Virus record (IMG/VR): IMGVR_UViG_3300038456_000483
Coordinates: 1 to 22,955 of that record
DNA length: 22,955 nucleotides
Origin: a virus
Strand: one strand, 5' to 3'
The notes below the pieces were generated by a model. The model saw nothing but the letters and a program-made list of their open reading frames with translations. It searched no databases and was not told the origin of the DNA. A program made the translations under genes and the position numbers. Position 1 is the first letter of the stretch, and each line of letters begins with the position of its first letter. This document shows, one piece after another, positions 8,242 through 21,926 of the stretch.

Positions 8242-9444
8242 ATGACCTCAACCGCCCAACTCGAATCGATCCAGGAATACGCCGACAATGCCGGCGCGAG
8301 ACTTCGCGTCGACCGCACCGCCGGCATCATCCCGAGCGTAAAACTCCTCGGCCGAATCTCCAAAAAAGGCCGCGAGTATCCGGCCGCCGTCATGGCCAAG
8401 GCCCTCCCGCTCTACGAAGGCATGCGGGTCAACATCGACCACGTCGATCCCAACCAGCGCCGCAGCCTCCGCGACCGCATCGGGCTGGTCAAAAACGTGA
8501 CGCTCAAGGAAGACGGCCTTTACGGCGACTTCCATTACAACCCCAAGCACGCGCTGGCCGAGCAGATCGCGTGGGACGCCGAGAACGCCCCGCAGAACTT
8601 GGGATTCTCCCATGACACCCGCGGCGGCAGCCGCAACATCGGCGGCAAGGTGGTCGTGGAGTCGATCGACAAAGTGCTTAGCGTCGATCTCGTCGCGAAT
8701 CCGGCCACGACCAGCAGCCTCTTTGAAAGCGAAGACACCATGCCGGACCCCGTACTGCAAGAAATGTGGTCCCCCGAATCACGGCAAGCCGCAGCCAGAG
8801 CCCGAGCCGCCAAGCACGGCGCGGCCGCCCATGCGGCCACTGCGAAATGCGTCGAACTCGATACCCCGATCGACAAGGCCGGCGGCTGCAAAGGTAGCTG
8901 GGACGAACGCGCGGCCGCCCATAAAAAGGCCGGCCAACTAAACCGCCATGCGGCGGCAGCCCACCGCGCCGCCGGCGACCACGCCGCCGCCGCCGCACAC
9001 GACGCCATGGCCGCTAAGCACGAAGCCACGCACCACCAAATGACGGACGAAGACCCCGCCGACAAAGCCGAGCGCGACCAGCAATCCGAAGGAGACCTTT
9101 CCGTGACCGACAAAGAAGAACTAACCGCCCTCCGCGCCGAGAAGGCCAACCGCATCTTGCAGGAGACGATCACCAGCGAACTCAAGACCGCTGGCCTTGA
9201 TCCAACCAATAAGGCCGCCGTCAGCGACGTCTTCATGGAGGACCTTGTCGCTACGGCCGACGCCAACAAGCGGCAAGCCAAGATCACGGACCGCAAGGCC
9301 CTCCTGACCGGAACCGGAACCGAAACCCACCGTCAAGCGGCCTACTCGCCCAGCCCGCTCGTGGAATCGGCCGACGCCAATCTCCAAAACGTGCCGCCAG
9401 CGACAGCCCCACTGCCCGACCGCATCCGCCGTTTCGCCAAGTAA
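8242..9444 (+). CDS. Capsid maturation (prohead) protease with scaffold-like C-terminal region
   Basis: This 400-aa protein has an N-terminal domain (about 1-160) resembling phage prohead proteases, which cleave scaffold and capsid proteins during head maturation. The visible family features are KLLGRISKKGREYP, LYEGMRVNIDHVDP (H67), a YNPKHALAEQ segment with AENAPQNLGFSHD (S123, H124), and VLSVDLVANPATTSSLFES. I infer that H67 and the S123/H124 pair are close to the active site. An Ala/His-rich helical region follows (about 180-275), and then a charged helical scaffold-like region (about 288-365). The C-terminus ends with PLPDRIRRFAK. The order portal, protease, decoration, capsid is classical. 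The start directly follows a terminator T-tract and has no Shine-Dalgarno sequence, so either the message is leaderless or the true start is downstream. Confidence 0.85.
   Translation: MTSTAQLESIQEYADNAGARLRVDRTAGIIPSVKLLGRISKKGREYPAAVMAKALPLYEGMRVNIDHVDPNQRRSLRDRIGLVKNVTLKEDGLYGDFHYNPKHALAEQIAWDAENAPQNLGFSHDTRGGSRNIGGKVVVESIDKVLSVDLVANPATTSSLFESEDTMPDPVLQEMWSPESRQAAARARAAKHGAAAHAATAKCVELDTPIDKAGGCKGSWDERAAAHKKAGQLNRHAAAAHRAAGDHAAAAAHDAMAAKHEATHHQMTDEDPADKAERDQQSEGDLSVTDKEELTALRAEKANRILQETITSELKTAGLDPTNKAAVSDVFMEDLVATADANKRQAKITDRKALLTGTGTETHRQAAYSPSPLVESADANLQNVPPATAPLPDRIRRFAK
9088..9105 (+). promoter_or_regulatory. Strong internal ribosome binding site with GTG start inside the protease gene
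   Basis: GAAGGAG (9088-9094) lies eight bases before an in-frame GTG (9103-9105). This is one of the best Shine-Dalgarno and start combinations in the window, while most annotated starts here have weak or no such sequence. It points to a separately translated C-terminal product. Confidence 0.5.
9103..9444 (+). CDS. Putative internally initiated scaffold protein nested in the protease gene
   Basis: The reading frame of the protease can restart at GTG 9103 (protease residue 288) and gives a 113-aa product. It begins with TDKEELTALRAEKANRILQ, a charged helix suited to coiled-coil formation, and ends with the protease C-terminus. In lambda, the scaffold Nu3 is made in this way from inside the protease gene C, and many tailed phages share the plan. 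The evidence here is the internal Shine-Dalgarno sequence, the change from Ala/His-rich to charged helical sequence at that point, and the absence of another scaffold gene. It shares its frame with the parent gene, so coding statistics cannot separate the two. Confidence 0.45.
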   Translation: MTDKEELTALRAEKANRILQETITSELKTAGLDPTNKAAVSDVFMEDLVATADANKRQAKITDRKALLTGTGTETHRQAAYSPSPLVESADANLQNVPPATAPLPDRIRRFAK

Positions 9445-9452
9445 GACTGCCG

Positions 9453-9473
9453 ACCTCTGACCGCTGACCTCCG
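9453..9473. repeat. Degenerate heptamer repeat before the decoration gene
   Basis: Three head-to-tail heptamers, ACCTCTG, ACCGCTG and ACCTCCG, occupy the spacer between the protease stop and the next start. They belong to the same repeat family as 10101-10156 and 13467-13500. Confidence 0.6.
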
Positions 9474-9498
9474 ATTCCCCGACCACGAAAGCCAAATC

Positions 9499-10101
9499 AT
9501 GAGTTCCAACGCCCGATATGTCCGCGGCGATGTCTGTGCTAAGCCGGTCCTCTGCGACGCCAATTATCCGATCGAAATCGGCGACCTGCTCTTTCGCGAG
9601 CCGACGAACGCCCTGGCCCGGCCGGCCAACGCCATGATCGAGCAAGGCAGCGAGACGCTCACGCAGCAGGAATTCCACAATCTGTTCTTGGGCGTCGCGC
9701 TGCAGAAGAACGGATTGCAGCCGGGTGAGACGGTGCCATTGCACGGCCCGCTAACGCACCAGCCGGCCAATTGCATCATGGTTGCCACCCAAGGAATCTT
9801 CCGCTTCCCGATCCAGGGCAGCGATACGAGCGTCTTCCAGGGGGGCGAATCCATCGGACCGGCCACGGTGACCGACAGCGCCGGAACCCAGTTGCAGAAC
9901 CAGGTGGTCGAGAAAGTCGCCAACATTCAGAACAGCATCGGCCGCGCCTCGCCCAGCGCCGCGTCGATCAACGCCACCGCCCAGGCCTTTGAAGGCCAGC
10001 CGCCTACGCTCACCAACAGCGTCGAAGTCGAAATCCTTTCCACGATCTTCTACGGTGGCGAGGCAGCCCCCGTCGTCGGATCCAGCAGCGGCCCGGCGTA
10101 A
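9499..10101 (+). CDS. Putative capsid decoration or head-stabilising protein
   Basis: I infer the role of this 200-aa protein mainly from its place between the protease and the major capsid gene, where lambda gpD-type decoration proteins sit. It has a beta-rich N-terminal half with residues such as GDLLFREPTNALARPANAM, a GVALQKNGLQPGETVPLHGPL stretch typical of small capsid-surface beta-barrels, and a helical middle. The C-terminus is EAAPVVGSSSGPA, carrying the SSSG motif shared with other structural proteins of this element. Start ATG 9499 is preceded by CGAAAGCC, a weak ribosome site. Heptamer repeats flank it on both sides. The structural role is likely; the exact decoration function is inference. 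Confidence 0.6.
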   Translation: MSSNARYVRGDVCAKPVLCDANYPIEIGDLLFREPTNALARPANAMIEQGSETLTQQEFHNLFLGVALQKNGLQPGETVPLHGPLTHQPANCIMVATQGIFRFPIQGSDTSVFQGGESIGPATVTDSAGTQLQNQVVEKVANIQNSIGRASPSAASINATAQAFEGQPPTLTNSVEVEILSTIFYGGEAAPVVGSSSGPA

Positions 10102-10156
10102 CCTCCGACCTCTGACCTCTGACCTCTGACCTCTGACCTCTGACCTCTGACCTCTG
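10101..10156. repeat. Tandem heptamer (ACCTCTG)n directly upstream of the major capsid gene
   Basis: One ACCTCCG unit (10101-10107) and seven perfect ACCTCTG units (10108-10156) fill nearly the whole 64-bp spacer between the decoration and capsid genes. The capsid ATG follows nine bases after the last unit. The strand is pyrimidine-rich and carries no Shine-Dalgarno sequence. Shorter related arrays lie at 9453-9473 and 13467-13500, and a trace (CACCTCACACCTC) follows the capsid gene. Confidence 0.92.
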
Positions 10157-10165
10157 GACAAAACC

Positions 10166-11497
10166 ATGCAAATCGCAGCCAAGCATATCGCCCGCGGACT
10201 CCGCACGGAAGGAGTCCAGAACCGCGGCCGGCAGGCCATCCTCAACTCGCGGACTTGGAGCGATTTGCAGGAAGCCCTCGACGCCGGCAGCGCGGGCACG
10301 CCCGGCGGCATCGCGCCCAAGGATTTCCGCTTGCGCGACCTCGCCGCGCACACGATCTTCAGCCGCAACGGCGACCCGGTGGGCTACGAATTCGTCGAGG
10401 AGTTTTTCGACCCCACGAACCAGTACCTGCAGGAAGGCATGGCGGCCGTCGATGCCTCGGCGTTTGCCGGCATTACCGGCCAATTGCTCATCAACCGCGT
10501 CCTGGCCGCGTTCCAGGCCGAAGATTTCGTGTTCAGCAAACTGATCCCGAACCAGCCGACACGTCTCAACGGCGAGCGGATCCCCGGCGTCGCGCTTCCT
10601 CGCGACGCGGGCGAAGATTTCGTAGTGGCCGAGGAAATGGACGAACTGCATTACGTCGGCTTCACGGAAGAGTACATCGAGACGCCGGCCACGACGAAGC
10701 GCCAAGTCGGCATCGCGATCACCAAGGAGGCGATCTTCTTCGACCGCACCGGTCTGGTCCTCGACCGAGCCAGTTACGTCGGCACACTCCTTGGCCTGCG
10801 GAAGGAAAAGAACCTCATCCTGACGGCAATCGGGGCCAACGAGACCTACCAGGAAAAGCGCACCGGCGACTCGGCCGCAGTCTCGCTCCCTACGTACATG
10901 GCGGCAGACGACGCCGGCCGCTGGATCAACCACCTCGACGGCAACGGCCTGACGGACTGGACCAACATCAACCTGGCCGAGCAGACGTTCGCCCAAATGG
11001 TCGATCCGAACACCGGCGAACCCATCATCCTCCCGGGCCGGCGCGTGCTGATCGCTCCCCAGGTCCAGGCATTGAGCCTGAACCAGTTGATGCAGGCCCA
11101 GCAAGTCTGGAAGGCCACCCAGGGCGGCATCACCGCGACGACGCCCCCCGGCGTGGCGACGATCGGCGCGAATCCCTTGATGGACTTGCAGATCACCATG
11201 GCCTTGAGCCGGCAGATGCTGAAGCAACTCACCGCCGCTTTCGGCCTGGCCATCACCGACGCCGCCAACTATTGGCTCTACGGCGACCCGGCCGCCTTTG
11301 CCTACATGGAGAACTGGCCGATCACTGTCGTCCAGGCCCCGACCAACAGCGAGGCCGAATTCACCCAGGACATTGTCGTGCGGTTCAAGGCCAGCGAACG
11401 CGGCGAGGCAGCCATCATCGAACCCCGCCGCATGATCCGCAGCCGCGCCATTTCGACCAGCAGCAGCAGCGGCGCGAGCCTGCCCGTAATCGTGTAA
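10166..11497 (+). CDS. Major capsid protein (HK97-fold, probable)
   Basis: This 443-aa protein forms the head shell by position and composition. The N-terminal region (about 1-110) is helical and polar and could be a scaffold-like delta region trimmed by the protease. A capsid-like core includes GYEFVEEFFDPTNQYLQEG and FSKLIPNQPTRLNGERIPGV. It also has ETPATTKRQVGIAITKEAIF, resembling the E-loop and spine-helix region of capsid proteins, and LPGRRVLIAPQVQ in the A-domain. The C-terminal part has NWPITVVQAPTNSEAEFTQDIVVRFKASERGEAAI, a pattern common at capsid protein ends. The tail is STSSSSGASLPVIV with the SSSG motif. The start ATG at 10166 follows the heptamer array and has no Shine-Dalgarno sequence. 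Confidence 0.85.
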   Translation: MQIAAKHIARGLRTEGVQNRGRQAILNSRTWSDLQEALDAGSAGTPGGIAPKDFRLRDLAAHTIFSRNGDPVGYEFVEEFFDPTNQYLQEGMAAVDASAFAGITGQLLINRVLAAFQAEDFVFSKLIPNQPTRLNGERIPGVALPRDAGEDFVVAEEMDELHYVGFTEEYIETPATTKRQVGIAITKEAIFFDRTGLVLDRASYVGTLLGLRKEKNLILTAIGANETYQEKRTGDSAAVSLPTYMAADDAGRWINHLDGNGLTDWTNINLAEQTFAQMVDPNTGEPIILPGRRVLIAPQVQALSLNQLMQAQQVWKATQGGITATTPPGVATIGANPLMDLQITMALSRQMLKQLTAAFGLAITDAANYWLYGDPAAFAYMENWPITVVQAPTNSEAEFTQDIVVRFKASERGEAAIIEPRRMIRSRAISTSSSSGASLPVIV

Positions 11498-11533
11498 GCC
11501 GCGCACCTCACACCTCAAGCTTTGGCGGTAAAC

Positions 11534-11866
11534 ATGAGCAACGAAAAAGAGCAAACGGAAGAGCGCATCGACGCGCGGCGCGACCGCAAGAACAGCAATT
11601 GGCTGGCCCTGGGGCTGTTTATCGCCACGATCCTCAGCGTCTACGTCGTCGTTCGCGCCAACGGCGAGACGGCCGCCGCCGACCGGCAAAAGACGGCCGA
11701 CGCCGTAACCGAGCTTCAGCACCAGGTCGCGGCCCACGACGAACATTTCAAGATCACCGACGCCGCGCTTACGCGGATCGAAAAGGACCTGGCCATCATC
11801 AAGTATATTCTCGATCCGCACGGCGACGCCGCGCGAGAGATGGCCGCCAAGAAGAAAACCGAATGA
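11534..11866 (+). CDS. Small membrane protein with one TM helix and coiled coil, spanin- or holin-like
   Basis: This 110-aa protein has a charged N-terminus, a single membrane helix (about residues 23-40, LALGLFIATILSVYVVV), then a polar helical region with heptad-like spacing (AVTELQHQVAAHDEHFKITDAALTRIEKDLAIIKYIL), and a lysine-rich tail. The N-terminal anchor followed by a coiled coil is the plan of i-spanins, which help disrupt the outer envelope during lysis. It precedes a two-TM holin-like gene by nine bases. I chose ATG 11534 over TTG 11522 because of codon preference and a GGCGG upstream; the extra four residues would not change the reading. A structural membrane anchor is the main alternative. 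Confidence 0.6.
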   Translation: MSNEKEQTEERIDARRDRKNSNWLALGLFIATILSVYVVVRANGETAAADRQKTADAVTELQHQVAAHDEHFKITDAALTRIEKDLAIIKYILDPHGDAAREMAAKKKTE

Positions 11867-11875
11867 CAGGCCAGC

Positions 11876-12100
11876 ATGACCGACCTCGCGACCTCGATTA
11901 CGATGACGTTGACTTTCGCCGCCGGCGCGCTCGCGTGGGACGCTTATCTTGCCGTTCGCGGCCACCTGGCCAGCGGCGGTGACTTTTGCGACGGGTGGCG
12001 GGTCATCAACAAATACACCGGCGGCCTCTTCGCGCTAACGCTTCTCGCGCTCTGGTGGCACTGTTTCGGCTATATGCCGCCATCATGGCGAGGGTTTTAG
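11876..12100 (+). CDS. Small two-TM membrane protein, holin-like
   Basis: This 74-aa protein has two hydrophobic segments: about residues 8-27 (ITMTLTFAAGALAWDAYLAV) and about 48-66 (TGGLFALTLLALWWHCFGYM). A short polar loop with GGDFCDGWR lies between them, and the tail PPSWRGF is aromatic and basic. Size and topology match class II holins, which make lethal holes in the membrane at the end of infection. It follows the spanin-like gene closely and the two may form a lysis cassette. No endolysin is visible nearby, so the lysis function is unproven. It is not similar to any protein I can name. Confidence 0.55.
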   Translation: MTDLATSITMTLTFAAGALAWDAYLAVRGHLASGGDFCDGWRVINKYTGGLFALTLLALWWHCFGYMPPSWRGF

Positions 12101-12107
12101 ATTTTAA

Positions 12108-12971
12108 ATGCCCAACCCAGGCGGAATAAGCACGGCACCAATCACCTGGCTGGACGCCTCGCTCCTGACCGCGGGCGCGAACATCTATAGCTGGAGCGAT
12201 TTGAGTAGCACGGCCGACAACATGGTCGCCACCTACAATCCGCCGTACTGCGCCGGATCGTATTTGAATGGCCTCGGTTGCGCGGACTTCTACGGCGGGC
12301 AGTGCCTTTATGGGACCGTTCAGCTTTCGTCGATCGGCGACCTGTTCCTCGTCATGAATTATGCCGGGGACCTGCCCAACGATACCAACGGGCCGTCCCT
12401 GTGCAGCTTTGATCCCTCTTTCGAATCCGTGACCAATTTCAATGTCCCGACGTGCGTCTATCCGGCTTTCTGGGGCGCGAGCGATGGCGACATCATGGAG
12501 CAAATCAGCATGGTCAACGGCACGGCGACGCCCAGCGGGTTTGACCTGACGACGGTCGGAGCCGGCGCATTCCTCGAAGTTGAAGCGTATCTGTCCTACT
12601 CGAACATGTACCTCAACCTCGGCCAACGCAATGGGGCATGGTGGAACGGCTACCTAGCGGAGTTGATCCTCTTTGCCGTGAACCTCTCATCGAGCGATCG
12701 CACGGCGGTCCGCAATTACCTCGGCCAAAAATGGCTCGGTTGGACGCCGCCGGCCAGCAATCCTGGCACGCCGCCAGCCATCCGCACGGGCGGCAATCTC
12801 TCGAACACAGGCATCTACACAGGAGGCAGGCTATGTCACTCACGTTTCCCAAGGTTCCGTTCCCGGGCCCCGGGCCGGCTAATCCTACCATCACGTACGG
12901 CGGCAACACGTATACGTTCGATGCGGGGCTGCTCACGCAGCGTGTCGGCGATTGGGTCAACGGCGTCGTAA
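12108..12971 (+). CDS. LamG/concanavalin-like domain protein, probable adhesin; aberrant C-terminus
   Basis: This 287-aa reading frame encodes a jelly-roll type lectin-like domain. The C-terminal signature NGYLAELILFAVNLSSSD followed by RTAVRNYLGQKWLGW is typical of LamG-like domains that are abundant in planctomycete surface proteins; I expect glycan or surface binding. The N-terminus has TWLDASLLTAGANIYSWSD, also typical of this group. The domain ends near residue 220. A Pro/Gly-rich segment follows up to TGIYTGG, and the last 45 residues (RLCHSRFPRF..., basic) overlap the next gene by 139 bases and look like out-of-frame translation. The ancestral stop codon was probably near 12833. The gene starts seven bases after the holin-like gene. 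Confidence 0.7.
   Translation: MPNPGGISTAPITWLDASLLTAGANIYSWSDLSSTADNMVATYNPPYCAGSYLNGLGCADFYGGQCLYGTVQLSSIGDLFLVMNYAGDLPNDTNGPSLCSFDPSFESVTNFNVPTCVYPAFWGASDGDIMEQISMVNGTATPSGFDLTTVGAGAFLEVEAYLSYSNMYLNLGQRNGAWWNGYLAELILFAVNLSSSDRTAVRNYLGQKWLGWTPPASNPGTPPAIRTGGNLSNTGIYTGGRLCHSRFPRFRSRAPGRLILPSRTAATRIRSMRGCSRSVSAIGSTAS
12821..12826 (+). promoter_or_regulatory. Strong Shine-Dalgarno AGGAGG setting the start at 12833
   Basis: AGGAGG lies six bases before ATG 12833. It is the best ribosome-binding match in the window and fixes the start of the downstream gene, rejecting a much longer upstream extension of that frame. It sits inside the end of the LamG-like reading frame, so translation of the two genes may interfere or couple. 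Confidence 0.8.
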
Positions 12972-13465
12972 CGGACCGCTGGCGGCTCTACGACTACGAG
13001 CATGCCCACCTGATCACCGACCAGGAAGCGGAGCTGCTCGGCATCGCGCCCGAATACCTGGTCGTAACCAGCAACATCCTCGGATTGGCTGAGGCAGACA
13101 GCTACCTCGCCGACACCGTGCTTAAGAACCTTGGCTCGGCGATCGTGGCCACCCTCCTGCCCGCGGTCGCCGCTGCGCAACTGAAGCTGTCCGTTGATAC
13201 CGCCGACCTGGCCGCGGCCAACACGGCGCGGACCAACCTCGCCGCGGACCAGGCCGCCTCGGCTGCGGCCGCCGCCGCATTGGCCGCCAACCCCACGAGC
13301 ACTTCGCTGCAGGCCGCCGCCACGGCCGCCACCAACAAGGTAACGCAAGACAACGCGCTCATCGCCACCATCCCCGCGCTGCAAACCCTTGTGAGCACAA
13401 CCGACCCGGCAGCGATTGCCGCGGTCCAGGCCGCCATCACGGCCATTGAAACCCAGTTCGCCTAA
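12833..13465 (+). CDS. Ala-rich helical structural protein of unknown function
   Basis: This 210-aa protein is unrecognised. The first 30 residues are Pro/Gly-rich (FPKVPFPGPGPANPTITYGG). The middle contains RVGDWVNGVVTDRWRLYDYEHAHLITDQEAELLGIAPEYLVV. The C-terminal half is an Ala/Thr-rich coiled-coil-like helix (TADLAAANTARTNLAADQAASAAAAA). A tail of short helices ends in AITAIETQFA. Similar Ala-rich helices occur in phage fibres and shafts. The start is fixed by AGGAGG at 12821. The gene ends just before a heptamer repeat at 13467 and precedes the BppU-like gene. I infer a fibre or connector role only from position and composition. Confidence 0.65.
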   Translation: MSLTFPKVPFPGPGPANPTITYGGNTYTFDAGLLTQRVGDWVNGVVTDRWRLYDYEHAHLITDQEAELLGIAPEYLVVTSNILGLAEADSYLADTVLKNLGSAIVATLLPAVAAAQLKLSVDTADLAAANTARTNLAADQAASAAAAAALAANPTSTSLQAAATAATNKVTQDNALIATIPALQTLVSTTDPAAIAAVQAAITAIETQFA

Positions 13466-13466
13466 G

Positions 13467-13500
13467 CCTCCGACCTCTGACCTCTGACCTCCGACCTCCT
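13467..13500. repeat. Heptamer repeats before the fibre-like gene
   Basis: After a partial CCTCCG unit come ACCTCTG twice, ACCTCCG and ACCTCCT in tandem. They belong to the same family as 10101-10156 and fill the spacer between 13465 and the next start at 13512. Confidence 0.85.
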
Positions 13501-13511
13501 AGCTTCCTCCC

Positions 13512-14969
13512 ATGCCCACCTCAACCGGATTCAGCGGAATCGACGTACGGGCCTCGCTCTTGGGCGGCGCCAGCGCCCTGGTCTGCGCCGCCTCGCTCAA
13601 AAACTCCTCCGGAGCGCAGGTCACCTCGGGCACGATCCGTCTGCGCATCTTCAAGGTCATGAGCGACGGCACGTTGCGGCAGTATGACTTTTCGACCAAC
13701 GCGTTTTTGTCGAGCGCGTCAAGCAGTCCCACCACGGGATACGTGGCGATGACCCAGCGGACGATTGGCGACAGCAGCTTCACGAATACCGGGTTGTGGA
13801 CGTATGCTTTGACAACGCTTACGGGCTTCACCGTCGGCGGCGTGTATATCTTCGACGTGTCGGACGAGAGCGGAACGCCGACGGCCTTTCCGCCGCAGCA
13901 AGAACGCCAGTTTCAGTTCGGCCAGGCCGAGGGCGACGTGGGCGCGGCCCTGTCCCTGAACACCGCCGGCACGCCGGCAATGTGGAGTGTCGCGGGGAGC
14001 GACGATATCGAGTCGGCCTCCGACACGCTGAACCTGCTCGCCGAGGTCCTCAGCGGCACGGAGCTGATGGTCATCGTCGGCTTCGGCAACCTGGTCCCTG
14101 ACGTGACGGGCATTTACGCGGACAACTCGGCCGATCCCGGGGTAGGCGGCAATTTGACCCGGCTGGACGGCGCGTATTACATCAGCGGCGGATACATCAT
14201 TCGCACCTCGGACAATACGAACCAGTTTCAGTTGCCCTATTTCACGAACAATCAGTCGCAGGTCGCCGCCATCTACGGCGGCGGCACGGGAAGCGGCCTG
14301 GCCTTCAGCGTTGCCGCGGCCGGTCAGGCCGGCGGAGTAGCGATCTTGGCGAACAATGGGTCTGTCCAAGTCGACGTTGCCAATGCACTCCTCGGGTATG
14401 ACGCGCCCACAGTCGGCGACCTGCCAGCCGTCGACGCAATCAGCGGAACGAACTATGCCCGCGTTACGCTGTATGGATTCTTCGGCGCGCTAGTCGCCAA
14501 CACCTCAAGCGCCTGGACCAAGATCGCCGCGGCCTTCGTCAACTTCTTCAATGCCGCCAGTCCAACAGGCACCATCAATAGCCTGCCGGCAGCCGTCCCC
14601 GGCGCGACCGGCGGTGTCGCGATCCAGGCCGCGGGCGGGAGCGTCAAGAGCGACGCCACTGCCGCCCTGACGGCCGCGGCCGGCGGCGCGATCCCAAGCG
14701 TCGCGCAGATCGCAGCCGCCTTGCCGACCAATACGACCATCCAAACCGCCGCAGCCGCCGCGCTAACGGCAGCCGGTATCCCAGCCGCCACCGTCGCCGC
14801 CGCCATAGTCGCACTGGAAGCTGCCGGGATCCTGCAACAGGTGCCCGGCCAATCCTCCAGCAGCGGGCAAAGCGAAGAACCCTTGCAATTCACCGCCCAG
14901 GCGTTGGCCAACGCAAGCGGCGGCACGACAAACAACATCACCAGCGAAACGATCACCATCCAGAGCTAG
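13512..14969 (+). CDS. Fibre- or baseplate-like structural protein with Ig-like N-domain and Ala-rich tail
   Basis: This 485-aa protein starts with an Ig-like beta-sandwich region (about 1-125, including GYVAMTQRTIGDSSFTNTG and a VYIFDVSDESG end strand). Its style resembles BppU-type baseplate or fibre N-domains. The middle (125-270) is beta-rich. The second half has two related segments, GGVAILANNGSVQVDVANAL and GGVAIQAAGGSVKSDATAAL, each followed by an Ala-rich helix with an APT- or IPS-type kink, as in phage fibre shafts. QSSSSGQ lies about 40 residues from the C-terminus. The start ATG 13512 follows a heptamer array and has no Shine-Dalgarno sequence. The N-domain is related in pattern to the next gene. 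A receptor-binding or shaft role is likely but unproven. Confidence 0.65.
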   Translation: MPTSTGFSGIDVRASLLGGASALVCAASLKNSSGAQVTSGTIRLRIFKVMSDGTLRQYDFSTNAFLSSASSSPTTGYVAMTQRTIGDSSFTNTGLWTYALTTLTGFTVGGVYIFDVSDESGTPTAFPPQQERQFQFGQAEGDVGAALSLNTAGTPAMWSVAGSDDIESASDTLNLLAEVLSGTELMVIVGFGNLVPDVTGIYADNSADPGVGGNLTRLDGAYYISGGYIIRTSDNTNQFQLPYFTNNQSQVAAIYGGGTGSGLAFSVAAAGQAGGVAILANNGSVQVDVANALLGYDAPTVGDLPAVDAISGTNYARVTLYGFFGALVANTSSAWTKIAAAFVNFFNAASPTGTINSLPAAVPGATGGVAIQAAGGSVKSDATAALTAAAGGAIPSVAQIAAALPTNTTIQTAAAAALTAAGIPAATVAAAIVALEAAGILQQVPGQSSSSGQSEEPLQFTAQALANASGGTTNNITSETITIQS

Positions 14970-14990
14970 AGCGCCAGCGCCACTAAAAGC

Positions 14991-15476
14991 ATGCAACTCG
15001 TCGTCATCAAAACATGGAAGGTCAACGGTACGCCAACGAACCCGACGAGCGTAACGCTCACATCGCTCGTCGAAGATGACAACTCGGCCGTGATTGCCTC
15101 CAACGTCGCGATGACCCAAACCGCGACCGGCGTTTACCAGTACGTCAACGCCAGCGTCAACGGCGGGACGACTTACACGGCCACGATCACCGTCGTTTAC
15201 AACGGCCAGACGATCACGGAAACCGTCGTCGTGCCGCCCGACGTCAACCCGGCGCAAATCTGCTGGCCGCACGGCTTCACAACGATCCTCAACCAACTCA
15301 TGAGCCTTGCGGCACAGATAACCCTCAGCCCGAACCCGACATATAGCGTCGAAGGCCACAGCTACCAGAAAGGCGAGTACCTCGAAATACTCGGCCGGCA
15401 AATCGAGCAGTTTTCAAAACTCAACGCCCAGGCGAATCCCTTTGAAATCATAACGCGAGGCGACCAATGGGACTAA
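14991..15476 (+). CDS. Ig-like domain protein with helical C-terminus, probable structural accessory
   Basis: This 161-aa protein has an N-terminal Ig-like beta domain (about 1-85) with VAMTQTATGVYQY, echoing VAMTQ...TGLWTY of the preceding gene. After WPHGFTTILNQLMSLAAQI comes a helical hairpin containing YSVEGHSYQKGEYLEILGRQIEQFSKL and ending PFEIITRGDQWD. The SVxGxxYxxxEYLxxLxxQI pattern is one I recall from small phage head-tail accessory proteins. The stop overlaps the next start by ten bases (15467-15476), so the two are probably co-translated. Exact role unknown; a neck accessory is possible because the neck genes follow. Confidence 0.6.
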   Translation: MQLVVIKTWKVNGTPTNPTSVTLTSLVEDDNSAVIASNVAMTQTATGVYQYVNASVNGGTTYTATITVVYNGQTITETVVVPPDVNPAQICWPHGFTTILNQLMSLAAQITLSPNPTYSVEGHSYQKGEYLEILGRQIEQFSKLNAQANPFEIITRGDQWD

Positions 15477-16240
15477 CCCTCGACTTCAGCGCCGATTTCT
15501 ACACCCTCGACATCCTCGATCCGCTCACACTCCGCATCAGCGGCAGGGCCGACCAGCCGATCCCCGGCGCGATGGACCATCCGCCCGACCTCAAGGACCC
15601 CGACCAGGCGGGCGGCCAGGTGGTGGAAGGTGATCGCTTTTGGGTGTGGCCAATCGTCGCCACACCCGCCGCCCCGCCGCTAGGCTCCCTGTTGTTGGAA
15701 AGCGACGGCACGACCTGGACGATCCTCAACCTGACCAAGAAGAAAACCCCGCAAGGCGTCTGGACGGCCCACACACGCAACCTCGCAGTCGCCTACGGCC
15801 TCAACAACGTCGCCGCAGTTTGGAAGGCAACCTACGCCAAATCGTCCGCAGGCGAAGCCCTAGCGACGTATGCCGCCGTTTTGACGGGGATCCCGGCCCG
15901 CTTTCAGCCGCTGGACACGACCGAGCAAATCCTGGAAGACGCCGAATACCCGAAAACGACCTACCACGTCATTCTCGGGACCGACATCTTTTCGCCCAAC
16001 ATTCCCGTTGAGCCGGCATCGGCCGACTACCGACTCGTCGACAACGCAGGCCGCCACTACCGCATCACCAAATACACCCGCGCCGCAAGAATCGATGTCC
16101 TTCCGATCGCCCAGTGCGTACTTGTAATTGAAGGCAGCGAAGGAAACGCCATCGACAACCTGGCCAGCAGTAGCGGCAGCGAACCCAAATGGCAAAAGTA
16201 CGAATCACCCTCACGATCACGCACAAGAGCCGGCGACTAG
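15467..16240 (+). CDS. Putative head-closure/connector protein with SSSG tail and run-on C-terminus
   Basis: This 257-aa protein is placed at the head of the neck cluster. It is beta-rich, with RFWVWPIVATPAAPP, TTWTILNLTKKKTPQGVW and a C-terminal block (YHVILGTDIFSP, DYRLVDNAGRHYRITKYTRAARIDVLPIAQCVLVIEG) reminiscent of head-tail joining proteins. They close the portal after packaging. The motif LASSSGSEP occurs near residue 235. The last roughly 17 residues (from the Q of WQKYESPSRSRTRAGD onward) overlap the next gene by 52 bases and look out-of-frame, so the ancestral stop probably lay just after the SSSG motif. The homology is at the level of position and composition only. Confidence 0.6.
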   Translation: MGLTLDFSADFYTLDILDPLTLRISGRADQPIPGAMDHPPDLKDPDQAGGQVVEGDRFWVWPIVATPAAPPLGSLLLESDGTTWTILNLTKKKTPQGVWTAHTRNLAVAYGLNNVAAVWKATYAKSSAGEALATYAAVLTGIPARFQPLDTTEQILEDAEYPKTTYHVILGTDIFSPNIPVEPASADYRLVDNAGRHYRITKYTRAARIDVLPIAQCVLVIEGSEGNAIDNLASSSGSEPKWQKYESPSRSRTRAGD

Positions 16241-16563
16241 CCAAAGATCTGGCCCTCGCCGGCCGCGACGGCCTGAATCGCGCCGCGGACCTCCTCGTCG
16301 CCGAACTGCAGCGGGTTGTATCGAAGCCCAACCCAAACCGAAAAACCCGAAACGAACACAACGCCCACGCCGGCGAACCGCCGATGACCCGCACCCGCGC
16401 GGGACTACGGTCGATCCACCGCACGGCCGCCGGCCGAATTTCCATGCTGGCCTACATGGCCGACCTCGACCTTGGCACCCACCGCATCGAGCCTAGGCCG
16501 TGGTACCAAGTCACGATTAAGCGCCTCGCCAGCGAACTCACCAAGACCGCGATGGGAAAGTAA
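16189..16563 (+). CDS. HK97 gp10-like neck / tail-completion protein
   Basis: This 124-aa protein shows the HK97 gp10 family plan: an N-terminal helix with NRAADLLVAELQRVVSK, a basic Pro/Asn loop (PNPNRKTRNEHNAHAGEPP), a TGAL-like TRTRAGLRSIHR stretch, and a C-terminal PRPWYQVTIKRLASELTKTAMGK helix following the conserved PRPW/F element. Such proteins sit at the junction between head and tail. It begins 52 bases inside the preceding reading frame at ATG 16189, and the next gene starts one base after its stop, so the neck genes are tightly packed. Confidence 0.8.
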   Translation: MAKVRITLTITHKSRRLAKDLALAGRDGLNRAADLLVAELQRVVSKPNPNRKTRNEHNAHAGEPPMTRTRAGLRSIHRTAAGRISMLAYMADLDLGTHRIEPRPWYQVTIKRLASELTKTAMGK

Positions 16564-16564
16564 T

Positions 16565-17032
16565 ATGGACCTCGGAACCATCGCCGGCGCGGCCAACCTC
16601 GAATCGGCGATCAACACGATCTGGGCGAACAACGCCGCGCTCGTCGCCGTCGTCCCGGCTGACGGCCTGATCACCGGCCGCGTACCGCCCAGCCAGAAAA
16701 TGCCGTACGTCCGCCTTGACCCGCAAGGGGGCCAAGAGGAATACCGCTCCAACGTCAGCGTCTACGCCACGGAGCGGATCGCGTTTCACGTCTGGACCGA
16801 CACGGTTGACGCCGGCCGCGCGATCGCGCCCGTCATCCGCGACGCCTTCAACTCCAATGAATTTAACTGGACCGTGGGCGCGGTCCTCGACATGAAGTGG
16901 GACGGCCCACCCGAAACCCAACAGGTCACCGATCCCGAAATCAAGGCCTGGCAGACCACCGTACACTTTACCCTCAAGACATGGACGCAGCGGCAAGACA
17001 CCAGCGCCATCACATCCAGCAGCGGAGACTAA
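16565..17032 (+). CDS. Tail terminator-like protein (DUF3168-type)
   Basis: This 155-aa protein matches the pattern of tail terminator proteins that cap the tail tube and dock it to the neck. It has an N-terminal LESAINTIWANNAALVAVV helix, the segment GRVPPSQKMPYVRL, a strand block ATERIAFHVWTDTVDAGRAI, and a C-terminal KAWQTTVHFTLKTWTQR strand. The order gp10-like, terminator, tube is the usual one. I chose ATG 16565, directly after the upstream stop. The C-terminus is DTSAITSSSGD, with the SSSG motif. The codons for this motif contain GGAG, which lies eight bases from the next start (17036), so the tail codons also serve as a ribosome-binding site. Confidence 0.75.
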   Translation: MDLGTIAGAANLESAINTIWANNAALVAVVPADGLITGRVPPSQKMPYVRLDPQGGQEEYRSNVSVYATERIAFHVWTDTVDAGRAIAPVIRDAFNSNEFNWTVGAVLDMKWDGPPETQQVTDPEIKAWQTTVHFTLKTWTQRQDTSAITSSSGD

Positions 17033-17035
17033 CAC

Positions 17036-17488
17036 ATGCCCGGACCGACACAAGGCATGGGCCAACAGAACGGCGACTGCCATCTCGGCAGCACGCAAAT
17101 GCTTGAAGTTCTCATGTGGCAATTCGAGCCCGAGCAAAGCCTCGGCGAAGTGGTCACGAATGTCACCGGCGGCTTCAAAGGCCAGGTCATGGGGGCCGTC
17201 GGCGGCCGCGGCAACGTCAAACTACTGATTCCGAAGACCGGCTACCAGACGCCGCCGCAATTCGGCACCACGCCCATCCTGAACCTCTATGCGGACGCCG
17301 CCAAGCTCCACGGCTACACGCAAATGCCGATCGCGGTGGAAAAGAACAGCGTCAAGATCGACCTCAACTCGCCCGAGGGCATTACCCTCACGTTCAACTT
17401 CAGGGCCAACGGACCCTACAACGCCACCGGCGCGTTTGCCGTCCTCGGCGCGTTCAACGACGAATCAACCAGCAGCAGCGGAACGTAA
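17036..17488 (+). CDS. Putative major tail tube protein
   Basis: This 150-aa protein follows the tail terminator, where the tail tube gene normally lies. It is beta-rich and includes EVVTNVTGGFKGQVMGAVGG, a KLLIPKTGYQTPPQFG turn, and PILNLYADAAKLHG, in the spirit of tube subunits. The chain ends LGAFNDESTSSSGT, with the SSSG motif. The size (150 aa) fits the family. GGAG in the end of the previous gene supplies its ribosome-binding site. The call is from position and composition. Confidence 0.6.
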   Translation: MPGPTQGMGQQNGDCHLGSTQMLEVLMWQFEPEQSLGEVVTNVTGGFKGQVMGAVGGRGNVKLLIPKTGYQTPPQFGTTPILNLYADAAKLHGYTQMPIAVEKNSVKIDLNSPEGITLTFNFRANGPYNATGAFAVLGAFNDESTSSSGT

Positions 17489-17504
17489 TCCCAACAACCA
17501 AAAA

Positions 17505-17804
17505 ATGGCAATTGAACTCGAAACGGCCGAGATCGCCATCGACACCGTTGGCGCAGAAGCCGTCCAGCAGACGCTGGACGCGCTAGGCGTGCAGGTCGAC
17601 GAAGTCAACGCGGCCGCCGGCGTATCGGACGACGCAGCGGCCGAATTCACGCCCGCCGCAAAGCAAGAGGGCTACGCGACCGCTCAGGCCGACGTGAGTC
17701 CCAACATCGGCGACCTGCTCGCCGAGCAACGGCGCACGAACGACCTGCTTGAACGCCTGATCGAACTTACCGAGCAACACCAACACAACGCACCGACCTA
17801 TTGA
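17505..17804 (+). CDS. Small acidic coiled-coil protein, possible tail assembly factor
   Basis: This 99-aa protein is unrecognised. It is acidic and Ala-rich (MAIELETAEIAIDTVGAEAV, AAGVSDDAAAEF), then ends in a coiled-coil-like helix (IGDLLAEQRRTNDLLERLI) and a His-rich tip (EQHQHNAPTY). It follows the tube-like gene, where tail assembly chaperones usually lie. No tape-measure gene follows. I chose ATG 17505; the reading frame upstream runs through the preceding gene in the wrong frame. Confidence 0.6.
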   Translation: MAIELETAEIAIDTVGAEAVQQTLDALGVQVDEVNAAAGVSDDAAAEFTPAAKQEGYATAQADVSPNIGDLLAEQRRTNDLLERLIELTEQHQHNAPTY

Positions 17805-17805
17805 C

Positions 17806-18054
17806 ATGGCACTCCCCAGAAAATACCAGGCTCGATCGACGGTCACCGCGGCGCAGCACAGCCATCTTGTGAACAGCGCCGCCGCCCTCCGCAAACAAAA
17901 GATCGAGCTCTTGTCAGCGAAACCGAACCCGGACGGAACCGTGACGGTCACCTTTTGCGGACATGGCCTAGGAAAAAACGCCATGCCAGTCCCGCCGGCG
18001 GCCAGCGTCGCCATCGCCGCCGACGGCACAATCAGCGTAACGCCAATCGAGTAA
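17806..18054 (+). CDS. Small beta-rich hypothetical protein
   Basis: This 82-aa protein starts one base after the preceding stop. A basic helical part (residues 1-35, ALPRKYQARSTVTAAQHSHL) is followed by two beta blocks, NPDGTVTVTFCG and DGTISVTPIE, which have the DGT-V/S turn of short beta-hairpins. I do not recognise a family. The tight spacing on both sides argues that it is a real gene of the tail operon. Confidence 0.6.
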   Translation: MALPRKYQARSTVTAAQHSHLVNSAAALRKQKIELLSAKPNPDGTVTVTFCGHGLGKNAMPVPPAASVAIAADGTISVTPIE

Positions 18055-18060
18055 GCAATT

Positions 18061-18828
18061 ATGACCGCACCCTACGGCGTAAAATCCAACAAGGCACGCT
18101 ACACCTACGACGGCTGGGATGCCGAAATGTCATGGGTCCTCGCCGCGGCCGACGTGCCGGCCTTCATCGCGTCGAACTACCTCGACGAGTACGCCGCATC
18201 AACGAACATGGCGGTCGTCGAGATCCTCGACGATCCCTTCATGGACAAGGATGTCGTCGACGACCAGGGCTACAGCCACAGCCGCAAGATCACGGCCCGC
18301 TTCAAAATCGTCTATCTCGACGTCCCCTGGCCCACTGACATCACCCGGCCCGACTACGCCAGCGGCACGACGCTCAAACTCCACACCGACTTCGGCGGCC
18401 ACATGCAGCCGCTGCCGCCCGGCGCGATCGCGCCGCCGGACGGCCCCATGCCAAGCCCCAACACCCGCCAGCACGTTTACGAAGTCCTCAACACCTACCA
18501 CGTGGAATGGGGGCGCGTGACCGACCTCGATAGCCTCGACTTCAGCGACTATCTCGGCGAAGTCAACTCCGACGATTTTATGGGCGTGCCCGCCGGCCAA
18601 ATGCTCTGCGCCGGCGCAAGCCACCGGCCTACCACGGTGCTCACACCCGGCGAGCCGTTGGCCTGGACGGTCACGCTCACGTTCAAGCAGAAGTCGATCA
18701 CGGACGGCTCCGGCACGCACGGCTGGAACGACTGGTACAACCCGGCCACCGAGCAGTACGAAGCCATGGTACTCAGCAGCGGAGACCCGCCCTACGACGA
18801 CACGACCTTTGGAGGCATTTTTTCATGA
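18061..18828 (+). CDS. Hypothetical tail or baseplate protein
   Basis: This 255-aa protein is unrecognised. It has an N-terminal beta region (TAPYGVKSNKARYTYDGWDAEMSW), a charged segment around EILDDPFMDKDVVDDQGY, and YLDVPWPTDITRPDY. Later come a Pro-rich stretch (LPPGAIAPPDGPMPSPNTRQ) and strands such as GEPLAWTVTLTFKQKSITDG. Near the end, MVLSSGDPPYDD carries a short SSG variant of the recurrent tail motif. The ATGA overlap (18825-18828) with the next gene shows co-translation. A role at the tail tip is inferred from position. Confidence 0.6.
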   Translation: MTAPYGVKSNKARYTYDGWDAEMSWVLAAADVPAFIASNYLDEYAASTNMAVVEILDDPFMDKDVVDDQGYSHSRKITARFKIVYLDVPWPTDITRPDYASGTTLKLHTDFGGHMQPLPPGAIAPPDGPMPSPNTRQHVYEVLNTYHVEWGRVTDLDSLDFSDYLGEVNSDDFMGVPAGQMLCAGASHRPTTVLTPGEPLAWTVTLTFKQKSITDGSGTHGWNDWYNPATEQYEAMVLSSGDPPYDDTTFGGIFS

Positions 18829-19850
18829 CCCGCCCGATCCACATACCACCCGCCAGTTCGCCGCTCACCGGCTTGCACAAGGTGCTTGAGACGATCGGCC
18901 GCGCGGCGGGCCGCGAAGATTACCCGGCCGCGGGCATGACTGCCCGCGATGGGACCGCGACGGCCGACCCGCCGCGAAACGCGATCGGCCTTTTCAAGCT
19001 CACCAGCGGGTTTCTCACGGGGGCCGACGCGAGCCCGACATGGACCAATCGGCCGGCCGATAGTTGGTACGTCGCGCAGGCAACGCGCGTGCAATACTAC
19101 CCGTCCACCGCCAGCCCGGCGAACACCTGGCAGACGGTCACCGAACACGGCGGAAGCGCGCCGCAATGCGACCTGGCCCAGATATGGGCCCCCGGCGCGC
19201 TCCTCCAGAACAGCACGATCGCCCAAAGCGGCGATCGCGTTTGGGCCTACTACGACGAAGGCCCGTGCTGCTGGGTCCTGCTATCAAAGCAACTTCCCTA
19301 CGCCTTCGGTGCCGCCTACGGCGCAGCCCAGCTCTTTACGGGCGGCGGATTCGTGACGCTGTCCGAGGGCTCGCCGCAGAACATGGCCATCGGCAACGGC
19401 ACGACGGGCAACTTTGAGATTACGCTCCCGGGCGCCTACCTGGCCATCGGCAGCCTCAGCGTCGGACCAGGCGCAACCGGCTCCGGCACGCTGGACGTGC
19501 CGCCCAATGCCCAATTCTGGGGCTCGATCAAACAGAACGGAACAACCGCCTGGGTTCAAGCTGACGGCCATTTCCATTGCGTAACCGACCCCGACAACAC
19601 GGCGGTACCGTGGAAAATCCCCGCCGGCCTGCTCGAGGAATCGATCACCTTGCCCCCGGGCGCCGGCGCGATCCTGGCCGTCGACATCGACCTCCCCGAG
19701 CTACCCACCGCCTACGGCAACATTGCCATGGCCGCAATTATCAACTGTGCCGTCAACGACCAGATCGGCCTTTACGTCGATTCCGACTACAACATCGAGG
19801 TTTTTGAGTCATCGCTCGTCCTGGTCTATCTTGGCCCAACCGGAGCATAA
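18825..19850 (+). CDS. Probable tail-fibre or tip protein with beta-sandwich C-domain
   Basis: This 341-aa protein overlaps the previous gene by four bases (ATGA). The N-terminal 130 residues contain RDGTATADPPRNAIGLFKLTS and later a DRVWAYYDEGPCCWVLLS segment. The C-terminal 190 residues form a glycine-rich beta structure with NMAIGNGTTGNFEITLPGAY and GAILAVDIDLPELPTAYGN, ending SSLVLVYLGPTGA. The end resembles the jelly-roll tips of some phage fibres (C1q/TNF-like), but I have only the pattern. Two glycosyltransferase-like genes follow at once, so this protein could be their substrate. Confidence 0.55.
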   Translation: MTRPIHIPPASSPLTGLHKVLETIGRAAGREDYPAAGMTARDGTATADPPRNAIGLFKLTSGFLTGADASPTWTNRPADSWYVAQATRVQYYPSTASPANTWQTVTEHGGSAPQCDLAQIWAPGALLQNSTIAQSGDRVWAYYDEGPCCWVLLSKQLPYAFGAAYGAAQLFTGGGFVTLSEGSPQNMAIGNGTTGNFEITLPGAYLAIGSLSVGPGATGSGTLDVPPNAQFWGSIKQNGTTAWVQADGHFHCVTDPDNTAVPWKIPAGLLEESITLPPGAGAILAVDIDLPELPTAYGNIAMAAIINCAVNDQIGLYVDSDYNIEVFESSLVLVYLGPTGA

Positions 19851-19852
19851 CC

Positions 19853-20887
19853 ATGCACATCTTCGTACTCGGCTACCCCGGCGCCATGGGCGGGGCCAAC
19901 ACCGAAGCCTGGCACACCGCAAAGCTATGGCGCGCGCACGGCATCGACGTAACCTTTATCCCCACGTGGCTCCCCGACCAGAAGGCAAAGCCCAAGCTCG
20001 ACGCCATCGGTTGCAGAACGCTGATCGCCGAAAGCCGGGACCACCTGGCCAAAGTGCCCGGCCTGGCCGGCAGCGTAGTCGTGGCCTTTTGCAATAGCCA
20101 GGCGATGCTGGAGCGGAAGACGCTCAAGGAGCTCGGCTGCCGCATGGTATGGGTCAACTGCATGACGTTCCTCTTCGACCAGGAGCGTTTTGCCGCCAAG
20201 ACCTACGGACCGCCCGAGGCCTACGTTTTCCAATCCGAGTACCAGCGCGGTGTACTGGAGCCGCTCCTCATGCCACTCGGATACAACGCTCGACTCGGGC
20301 ACCTCATCCGCGGCGCTTTCGCTTTCGACGAAATCCCCTACGCCCCGCGGCCCCACCCGCCGCAGCAGGACTTTTGGATCGGACGCCTGGCCCGCCCCGA
20401 CCTCGACAAATGGAGCTCCACTCACTGGAAGATTCTCGGCCAGGTCCCCTACCCGGCCCGCCGCGGCCTGGCGATGGGATGGAACGACGCCCTCGACCGC
20501 AAATGCGGACCGCGGCCGGCATGGGCCGAGACCCTCGCCCCGCAGCAGATTGCGGCCCCCGACTTCCTCGGCCGTTGCCACGCCATGCTGGGCCTAAACG
20601 GCGGCGCGCGGGAGAACTGGCCCCGCATCGGCCTGGAGGCCATGGCCGCCGGCGTGCCGCTGGTTTGCCAGAACGAATGGGGCTGGAAGGAAATGATCCA
20701 AGACGGCCTAACCGGCTTTCTCACCAACACCGACGAGGAAATGGCCTACCGCCTGGCCCAGCTCACCTACGACGAAGACCTCCGGCGAACGATCATCGAG
20801 CGCGCCGCGGCGGCCGTCAAAGACCTGGCCTGCCCCGAGCGGATCGGTGCGCAGTGGACCCGCCTCTTTAAATCGCTAGGAGCCTGA
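19853..20887 (+). CDS. GT-B fold glycosyltransferase (GT4-like)
   Basis: This 344-aa protein transfers sugar from a nucleotide-sugar donor. The N-terminus MHIFVLGYPGAMGGANTEAW has the Gly-rich loop of GT-B acceptor domains. The C-terminal donor domain has ENWPRIGLEAMAAGVPLVC, with the E-x7-E pair at E254 and E262, and WKEMIQDGLTGFL, which matches the GT4 family. Residues HRY-type donors are not resolvable by eye. A Shine-Dalgarno GGAG (19842-19845) lies seven bases upstream, inside the end of the fibre-like gene. Phage GTs can modify virion proteins, DNA or host surface sugars; here the position after tail genes suggests tail or receptor glycans. Confidence 0.85.
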   Translation: MHIFVLGYPGAMGGANTEAWHTAKLWRAHGIDVTFIPTWLPDQKAKPKLDAIGCRTLIAESRDHLAKVPGLAGSVVVAFCNSQAMLERKTLKELGCRMVWVNCMTFLFDQERFAAKTYGPPEAYVFQSEYQRGVLEPLLMPLGYNARLGHLIRGAFAFDEIPYAPRPHPPQQDFWIGRLARPDLDKWSSTHWKILGQVPYPARRGLAMGWNDALDRKCGPRPAWAETLAPQQIAAPDFLGRCHAMLGLNGGARENWPRIGLEAMAAGVPLVCQNEWGWKEMIQDGLTGFLTNTDEEMAYRLAQLTYDEDLRRTIIERAAAAVKDLACPERIGAQWTRLFKSLGA

Positions 20888-20891
20888 AACG

Positions 20892-21557
20892 ATGACCTGC
20901 ACGCAATGCAACGGGAACGGCCGAGTATTTTTCGGCGGACTCGGCCGCAAAAGCCACGTCGGACCTTGCCCGCAATGCGCTGCGCCCCCGATCCACGTCC
21001 TCACGCCCTTCTCGCGCCTGCCGATGCTCCCCAAGTTGCAAGCCGTATTGGAACCGCAGCAAGTCACCTGGCACCTGATTTGCCACTTCCCGGTCGAGTC
21101 ACCAGCCCCATGGATTCACGCCCACCAATGCGGCCCGTGCCCGACCGTGGGCTACGATATTTGCTACTGGAAACTGAACTGGTTCCTGCGGAAGCAAGAG
21201 CTCGACCCGGCCGCACGTTACGGGGTGATTTGCGATGACGATGCTTGCCAGCCTGACTATTTCGACCAGATACGGGCGGCCGGCGACGTGCCGGTCGTGA
21301 TCACCTCCCGCGACTTCGGCCGCGGGCACGGCGGCTTTCTCGCCGACAAGAAGAACATGAAACCGGGCAGCGTCGGATTTCAATTCTGGGTAATGGGCCA
21401 TATCCTCGCCAAGCTGGCCTTCGCCAACAGCCGCGCCGGGGACGGCATCATGGCCACCCAACTGGCCCACAATTACCCGACGACTTACCTGCCGAGAGCG
21501 GCAGGGTGGTACAACGCCCTCTCCAACGGCCGCGAGTTCCCCGGCAATTGCCTGTAA
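20892..21557 (+). CDS. Zinc-knuckle plus GT-A-like glycosyltransferase fusion
   Basis: This 221-aa protein starts with a DnaJ-type zinc-binding module: CTQCNGNG (residues 3-10) and CPQC near residues 26-29. The rest is GT-A-like. It begins with PPIHVLTPFSRLPMLPKL, a form of the TPxxRxxxLPxL start I know from family 2 glycosyltransferases, and has the acidic triplet CDDDACQPDYFDQI (D115-D117), a DxD-type metal-binding motif. The later part is rich in Gly and aromatic residues. AGGAG (20878-20882) lies nine bases upstream. It follows the GT4-like gene by four bases, so the two form a pair. It is the last gene of the forward operon. Confidence 0.65.
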   Translation: MTCTQCNGNGRVFFGGLGRKSHVGPCPQCAAPPIHVLTPFSRLPMLPKLQAVLEPQQVTWHLICHFPVESPAPWIHAHQCGPCPTVGYDICYWKLNWFLRKQELDPAARYGVICDDDACQPDYFDQIRAAGDVPVVITSRDFGRGHGGFLADKKNMKPGSVGFQFWVMGHILAKLAFANSRAGDGIMATQLAHNYPTTYLPRAAGWYNALSNGREFPGNCL

Positions 21558-21575: not shown

Positions 21576-21926
21576 CTATGGCAATCGCAATAAGGAGCGG
21601 AGATTGCTTTCAAGGACAGACATTTCCGCAGCAGACAATCTGCCAATGACTCGCTCAACACGTCGCTGGTCAATTACCCGAATTTGACTTGTGAGTGCCA
21701 CCGATGGAGATCGGAGGCCGTTCGCATCAGTTGGTTCAACGATGAACGACCCATTAAATTTCTGTGCGGCAAGATTCGTGGTAAACGGAACGATTATCGC
21801 TGTCGACGACTTCGCTAGAGACGGGGTGTCTTGGACAACAACAGCGGGTCGATACCCGAACTGCTCCCTGCCGGCCGATCCCGCCGGACGCGGAATGTCA
21901 ACACGAACGATGTCTCCTCGCCGCAT
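21576..21926 (-). CDS. mazF: MazF/PemK-type endoribonuclease toxin
   Basis: This 116-aa protein is a MazF-family toxin, an RNase that cleaves mRNA at short sequences when its antitoxin is lost. Visible family features are MRRGDIVRVDIPRP at the N-terminus, GYRPAVVVQD, IIVPFTTNL, and SPSVALTSQIRVIDQRRVERVIGRL with the typical QIRxID core. The length is normal. The gene lies convergent to the phage operon, with its stop 19 bases from the GT gene stop. The upstream partner ends 20 bases before its start (21947). Base use is less GC-rich than in the phage genes, which suggests separate acquisition. Confidence 0.93.
   Translation of the reverse strand: MRRGDIVRVDIPRPAGSAGREQFGYRPAVVVQDTPSLAKSSTAIIVPFTTNLAAQKFNGSFIVEPTDANGLRSPSVALTSQIRVIDQRRVERVIGRLSAAEMSVLESNLRSLLRLP

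Follow-up and report, generated by a model that had tools for sequence, protein, structure and literature searches.

Organization of the locus and the SSSG-bearing proteins

The window analyzed here is the complete 22,955-nt IMG/VR record IMGVR_UViG_3300038456_000483 (positions 1–22,955), a 23 kb virus with a head-and-tail gene block on the plus strand, in which the tetrapeptide SSSG recurs in six otherwise unrelated proteins:

9499–10101, plus strand: decoration protein with a predicted gpD/SHP-like fold (AlphaFold model); C-terminal tail SSSGPA at 10081–10098
10166–11497, plus strand: major capsid protein (179 homologues); C-terminal tail SSSSGASLPVIV, with SSSSG at 11459–11473
13512–14969, plus strand: fibre-like protein (one homologue found); SSSSG at 14853–14867, 33 residues before the end
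15467–16240, plus strand: head-closure-like protein; SSSG at 16166–16177, followed by an extension that overlaps the next gene
16565–17032, plus strand: tail terminator (Tail_completion_gp17, PF11367, E-value 7.5e-7); ends SSSGD, motif at 17015–17026
17036–17488, plus strand: tail tube, identified from an aligned family; ends SSSGT, motif at 17471–17482

The tube assignment draws on the homologues of this protein, which match tail tube models weakly (PF06199, E-value 0.004; PF18906, E-value 0.024). Relatives of the window were found as uncultured virus contigs and as phages or prophages on contigs of planctomycete genomes. Genes were called with a codon-usage script in 181 loci; these calls are our own, at most 80 loci were taken per scan, and most of the records are fragments. 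A scan with the window tube protein gave no relatives, and the search of isolated phages (50,697 phage records) gave none for the capsid protein, the glycosyltransferase discussed below or the product of the gene that follows it.

The original prediction listed six structural proteins with SSSG near the C-terminus. All six sites exist, and in four of these proteins (decoration, capsid, terminator and tube) the motif lies 1–7 residues from the C-terminus (e.g., 10081–10092 in the decoration protein gene). In the head-closure-like protein, SSSG is 20 residues from the end because the reading frame continues into the next gene (start at 16189). The 3' ends of the genes 12108–12971 and 15467–16240 run out of frame past the next start (12833 and 16189, respectively), and the overlapped DNA thus encodes their final residues. 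The fibre motif, placed by the prediction 40 residues from the end, is actually 33 residues away and does not form a C-terminal tail; the membership of this protein in the set is uncertain. The SSG variant of the 18061 gene, noted in addition to the predicted six, is 14–15 residues from the end in a family that never has an SSSG tail, and is probably incidental. From composition, 0.1 SSSG would be expected in the window proteome; the four proteins with SSSG in the last 15 residues compare with 0.02 in tail shuffles.

Enrichment of SSSG at C-termini

Among the 20 loci with an SSSG-tailed capsid protein (window included), the S3+G motif is found in the last 15 residues of 40 of the 205 proteins, compared with 0.68 (maximum 4) expected after shuffling the last 30 residues and 0.06 after shuffling whole proteins. 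In these relatives, the density of S3+G is 13.0 per 1000 residues at C-termini but 0.26 internally, and in the remaining loci only 13 of 2265 proteins end in this way. The comparison of C-terminal SSSG with a shuffled background, which had been put forward as the check on the motif, thus confirms the observation of SSSG tails. These tails are not a general trait of the hosts, given that none of 495 planctomycete host genes (from four genomes, one being that of the relative L081) encodes an S3+G end; nor are they a general trait of the capsid family, in which most homologues have no tail and stop at VVKCTG-like cores.

Distribution of the tails among virion proteins

Within the clade of 21 loci that includes the window, the tail is present in 18 of the 21 capsid proteins and in 15 of the 21 decoration proteins (in L069, the two genes were called as a single fused frame, so that its decoration entry is the capsid tail). 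It is less regular in the other families: 4 of 9 terminators (that of L006 ends SSSSSGSSSGSSGSSSSSG), 4 of 9 tubes (that of L174 ends SSSGA), with shorter Ser ends in 4 more, 1 of 10 portal proteins and 1 of 9 head-closure proteins, namely the L003 homologue, which ends in SSSGA-stop, the other 7 being without a tail. The fullest set is illustrated by L003, where the decoration protein ends in SSSGTV, the capsid in SSSSGNTGTFTE, head closure in SSSGA, the terminator in SSSSGM and the tube in SSSGTIE. No tail was found in any clade terminase, protease, adaptor or 16189-type protein. The window counterparts of these proteins, and the portal, are as follows:

1974–3413, plus strand: terminase
3380–7915, plus strand: portal fusion
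8242–9444, plus strand: protease-like protein
14991–15476, plus strand: adaptor-like protein
16189–16563, plus strand: 16189-type protein

When the tail is left out of the capsid alignment, the resulting tree places the SSSG clade (18 rows, 99% support) apart from a second group. There, the ends are SSPSGV, SSFSGA, SSSGM or SSSSGQ in decoration proteins and GSGSGT, SSSGA or SSSSS in capsid proteins, and another tail protein, of about 170 aa, also bears such an end. Mapped on this tree, the tail changes state at least 6 times in each of the capsid and decoration proteins.

The AlphaFold model of the decoration protein has a predicted local distance difference test (pLDDT) score of 77, which falls below 50 for residues 190–200, in line with a disordered end. 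A Foldseek search started from this model identifies similarity to decoration proteins of Pam3, T1, phiCD508, 21 and lambda (best E-value 1.4e-3, probability 1.00, modest template modeling scores), and most of the best matches are capsid decoration proteins, so that a gpD-like fold is predicted. The similarity to lambda gpD and phage 21 SHP is in the fold, whereas the SSSG extension distinguishes the protein described here and is mostly missing in relatives that lack the glycosyltransferase, many of which end in GGPQAAA or similar.

A peptide common to several unrelated components that come together in the particle, and strongly conserved as SSSSG in capsids, might be an assembly or sorting tag, that is, a docking site for a protein of the virion or of the host (such as a tail or decoration component, a protease or a chaperone) that binds several structural proteins. 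However, no candidate receptor was found, the tail is missing from many relatives whose capsids belong to this family, the set of tagged proteins varies between relatives, and the association with the glycosyltransferase described below would be left unexplained. This explanation therefore appears improbable, and no positive evidence was found for either the protease tag or the sorting tag considered in the original prediction.

Selection on the protein rather than on DNA

All six sites in the window use DNA of the AGC-AGC(T)-GGN type, and in the terminator gene a GGAG is located 8 bases upstream of the next ATG. These features would be accounted for by a cause at the DNA level, such as a recombination seam for modular gene exchange, slippage in AGC repeats, or the ribosome-binding site of the next gene lying over the gene end. 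The DNA similarity noted previously does hold within the window, where AGC is the preferred Ser codon, but across the relatives the codons are thoroughly mixed: the 39 tails from 16 clade loci comprise 31 different 12-base strings, and the tail Ser codons are 59% AGY and 42% TCN (rounded), with the same position switching between the two codon families. In addition, SSSSG is retained in capsid proteins that have otherwise diverged to about 45–50% identity. A seam or repeat would entail identical DNA at the motif in different genes and genomes, which is not seen. Judged from the mixed codons and the diversity of 12-mers, therefore, selection acts on the amino acids and not on a DNA seam. Codon diversity likewise rejects AGC slippage, and overlap with a ribosome-binding site fits the terminator gene only, most tails not being at ribosome-binding distance from the next start. 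A DNA-level origin is contradicted by these data and is very improbable.

Association with a GT4 glycosyltransferase

The genes downstream of the tail block are:

18061–18828, plus strand: distal tail protein; in most relatives its gene precedes that of GT4 and serves as a syntenic anchor
18825–19850, plus strand: open reading frame between the distal tail protein and GT4
19853–20887, plus strand: GT4 glycosyltransferase (PF00534, E-value 3.5e-9); proposed tail-modifying enzyme
20892–21557, plus strand: 221-aa protein encoded next after GT4; Cys-rich at the N-terminus, CDDD motif present

Two glycosyltransferases had been predicted in the window. The product of 19853–20887 is assigned to the GT4 class by its PF00534 score (36.9 bits compared with the curated cut-off of 26.4) and its EX7E motif; the second candidate, the 221-aa protein, has no match in Pfam, PHROG or NCBIfam. 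This protein occupies the place of glycosyltransferase (GT2) or sulfotransferase genes in relatives and is possibly a second glycan enzyme. Members of the GT4 family are 39–54% identical to that of the window, with invariant E-N-W-P-R and E262 and the EX7E motif within ENWPRxGLE, and are encoded directly after the distal tail gene or a few genes from it. They share the C-terminal domain and EX7E motif with other GT4-type enzymes (Pfam Glycos_transf_1) but differ in being a phage-borne family that follows tail genes, unmatched in the phage records searched.

The cassettes of relatives add GT2 genes and a sulfotransferase. The L149 cassette that follows the tail genes (16555–19614) encodes GT4, a 214-aa protein, a Sulfotransfer_2 enzyme (E-value 1.9e-14) and a protein that is 68–70% identical to the GT2-type proteins of L045 and L052; this composition suggests a sulfated glycan. 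In L139 (17875–19581), GT2 and GT4 domains are fused in a 569-aa protein, and the tails in this phage are SSSSGQ and SSSSS.

Among virus records with Ser/Gly tails, PF00534 was found in the window, L006, L007, L010 and L029, then in L045, L052 and L183; in L211 the match is below the cut-off. The definition of a tail was broadened to S(x)SG after these PF00534-bearing records had been seen, so that they cannot serve as a test of it. Planctomycete genome contigs that extend at least 7 kb past the capsid gene played no part in framing the idea; there, a search of all loci with a profile of the GT4 family finds the enzyme in 4 of 5 tailed loci compared with 3 of 39 untailed ones (p = 0.0012). The three exceptions are L085, L091 and L127. 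Among the loci where the site after the distal tail gene is visible, S(x)SG tails are present in 10 of 12 with GT4 and in 0 of 21 without it (Fisher p = 7e-7); after removal of near-duplicates, the counts are 9 of 11 and 0 of 20. Both p values ignore ancestry.

The same trend is apparent in the tail protein of about 170 aa, which in relatives without GT4 mostly stops at the core (IVGTSA, VVGVQA), whereas in GT4-bearing relatives SSSGA, SSSGG, GSGSSGT, GSGSGSGSGS or SSSS extends beyond the core end. Departures are L138, which has GT4 without an added tail, L046 and L037, which are tailed with GT4 not seen, and L105 and L158, which are Ser-rich with no GT4. Loci with and without GT4 differ in the Ser plus Thr content at the ends of the decoration protein (p = 4e-6) and the 170-aa tail protein (p = 0.03) and marginally of the capsid (p = 0.06), and eight other families show no association; when Ser is considered alone, proteases of GT4-bearing loci have less of it rather than more. 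Long Ser/Glu-rich ends occur in the tail proteins of two relatives: SSSSESSWSSSSEES in L127 (5001–5693), where no decoration gene is in view, and SGSSGSSSASGSSSSSESISE in L158, a goat-gut relative.

Ser/Gly ends could also be generic flexible, hydrophilic tails that aid solubility or block C-terminal proteolysis, with no dedicated enzyme and with the glycosyltransferase linkage reflecting shared ancestry. Such an explanation is compatible with the low complexity of the sequence, the low pLDDT at the end of the decoration protein, the variation in length and exact sequence, and the ready gain and loss across the tree, which amounts to 5–6 changes. It would not predict, however, that the order SSSG exceeds composition-matched shuffles so far (40 vs 0.68), that the tails are missing from hosts and from the remaining proteins of these phages, or that the GT4 contrasts all point one way, and it is considered unlikely.

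Precedent in mycobacteriophages

Glycans at the C-termini of capsid and tail tube proteins of mycobacteriophages are mentioned in PMC12619734, and Che8, with its cluster F1 relatives, is named as one such glycosylated phage in PMC11256854, both in statements that cite Freeman et al. 2023. In the Che8 record, the capsid protein ends in KTGS and the major tail protein in SDGS, and three glycosyltransferases are encoded together at 56171–58673; the GS shared by the two virion proteins is our own observation. The planctomycete phages resemble Che8 in having a phage-encoded glycosyltransferase cassette and a hydroxyl-bearing C-terminal motif shared by unrelated major virion proteins (GS in Che8, SSSG here). 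They differ in the host phylum, in the tag itself, in the number of tagged protein families (up to five or six here) and in the enzymes, namely GT4 as opposed to GT2 with a methyltransferase, GT2-like and GT25 in Che8. Furthermore, glycans have been reported in the mycobacteriophages and are predicted in the planctomycete phages. No significant homology to the Che8 enzymes, which belong to Pfam families other than that of GT4, was found for GT4 or the product of the following gene. The two groups of phages thus seem to have converged, those of planctomycetes with a longer tag, a larger set of tagged proteins and an enzyme of another kind. A literature search for glycosylated capsids with a C-terminal serine, and for Pirellula phages, gave no match.

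Predicted glycosylation of the tails

Taken together, the co-occurrence with GT4, the location of the gene and the mycobacteriophage precedent make a glycosylation site the best supported of the functions proposed originally, and the presence of tails in five to six unrelated virion families, but in no terminase, protease or adaptor, further supports a role as acceptor tags. The SSSG ends would be short, flexible acceptors on virion proteins (decoration, capsid, tube, terminator and sometimes head closure), and the GT4 enzyme, whose gene directly follows those of the tail, would add O-linked sugars to the serines (to threonines in some relatives), joined in certain relatives by partner enzymes, yielding a particle that wears a glycan coat. 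The tags are thus probably attachment sites for sugars, and a rough probability of 0.55 is assigned to C-terminal O-glycosylation by the phage GT4. The tails are presumed to be exposed, and the coat might confer a benefit such as shielding or adhesion. Display on the outside of the particle is tolerated at the C-termini of lambda gpD, lambda gpV and T7 gp10, in keeping with exposed tails.

Several observations weigh against this reading. The GT4-bearing L085 and L091 have Thr-rich ends (GTTT and GTTAPAS in the decoration proteins) rather than SSSG, and Ser-rich tails occur in L105 and L158, where this GT4 family is missing. Independent phylogenetic contrasts are few, mostly 3 concordant and 0 discordant, such that a sign test cannot reach 0.05. 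The capsid model (pLDDT 49) is too poor to place the C-terminus, the window GT4 shows no resemblance to the enzymes of Che8, and GT4 could instead modify a host surface polysaccharide or phage DNA.

More broadly, and tentatively, the tails might constitute a portable acceptor code, whereby the evolution of an S(x)SG tail would suffice to make a virion protein the substrate of a dedicated phage glycosyltransferase. In planctomycete phages, the capsid, decoration, tube, terminator and head-closure proteins would each have acquired such a tail independently, and mycobacteriophages would have converged on the same solution through different motifs and enzymes. That a single tag recurs on many unrelated virion proteins is in itself unusual and can be tested directly. 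If the glycosylation reading is correct, virion glycosylation would be predictable purely from sequence, by a C-terminal motif shared by unrelated structural proteins near a glycosyltransferase, the trait would reach from cultured mycobacteriophages to uncultured planctomycete phages, and the tail with its cognate enzyme would represent a short, genetically encoded acceptor tag.

Other features of the window

The portal gene (3380–7915) encodes a long extension with a ComEC-like metallo-beta-lactamase domain, an unusual fusion for a portal protein (ComEC/Rec2, E-value 1e-6, residues 990–1161 counted from a start at 3410; Lactamase_B_2 is weak). Accessory genes are located between the capsid gene and the adaptor-like gene. 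A MazF/PemK-like endoribonuclease toxin is encoded on the minus strand (21576–21926) after the late genes (NCBIfam MazF, E-value 1.7e-8). Tandem arrays of heptamers (ACCTCTG, CCTCCGA) occupy the intergenic gaps 10101–10156 and 13467–13499, immediately before the genes for capsid and fibre, respectively; eight copies precede the capsid gene, and a shorter similar stretch (9445–9495) lies before the decoration gene.

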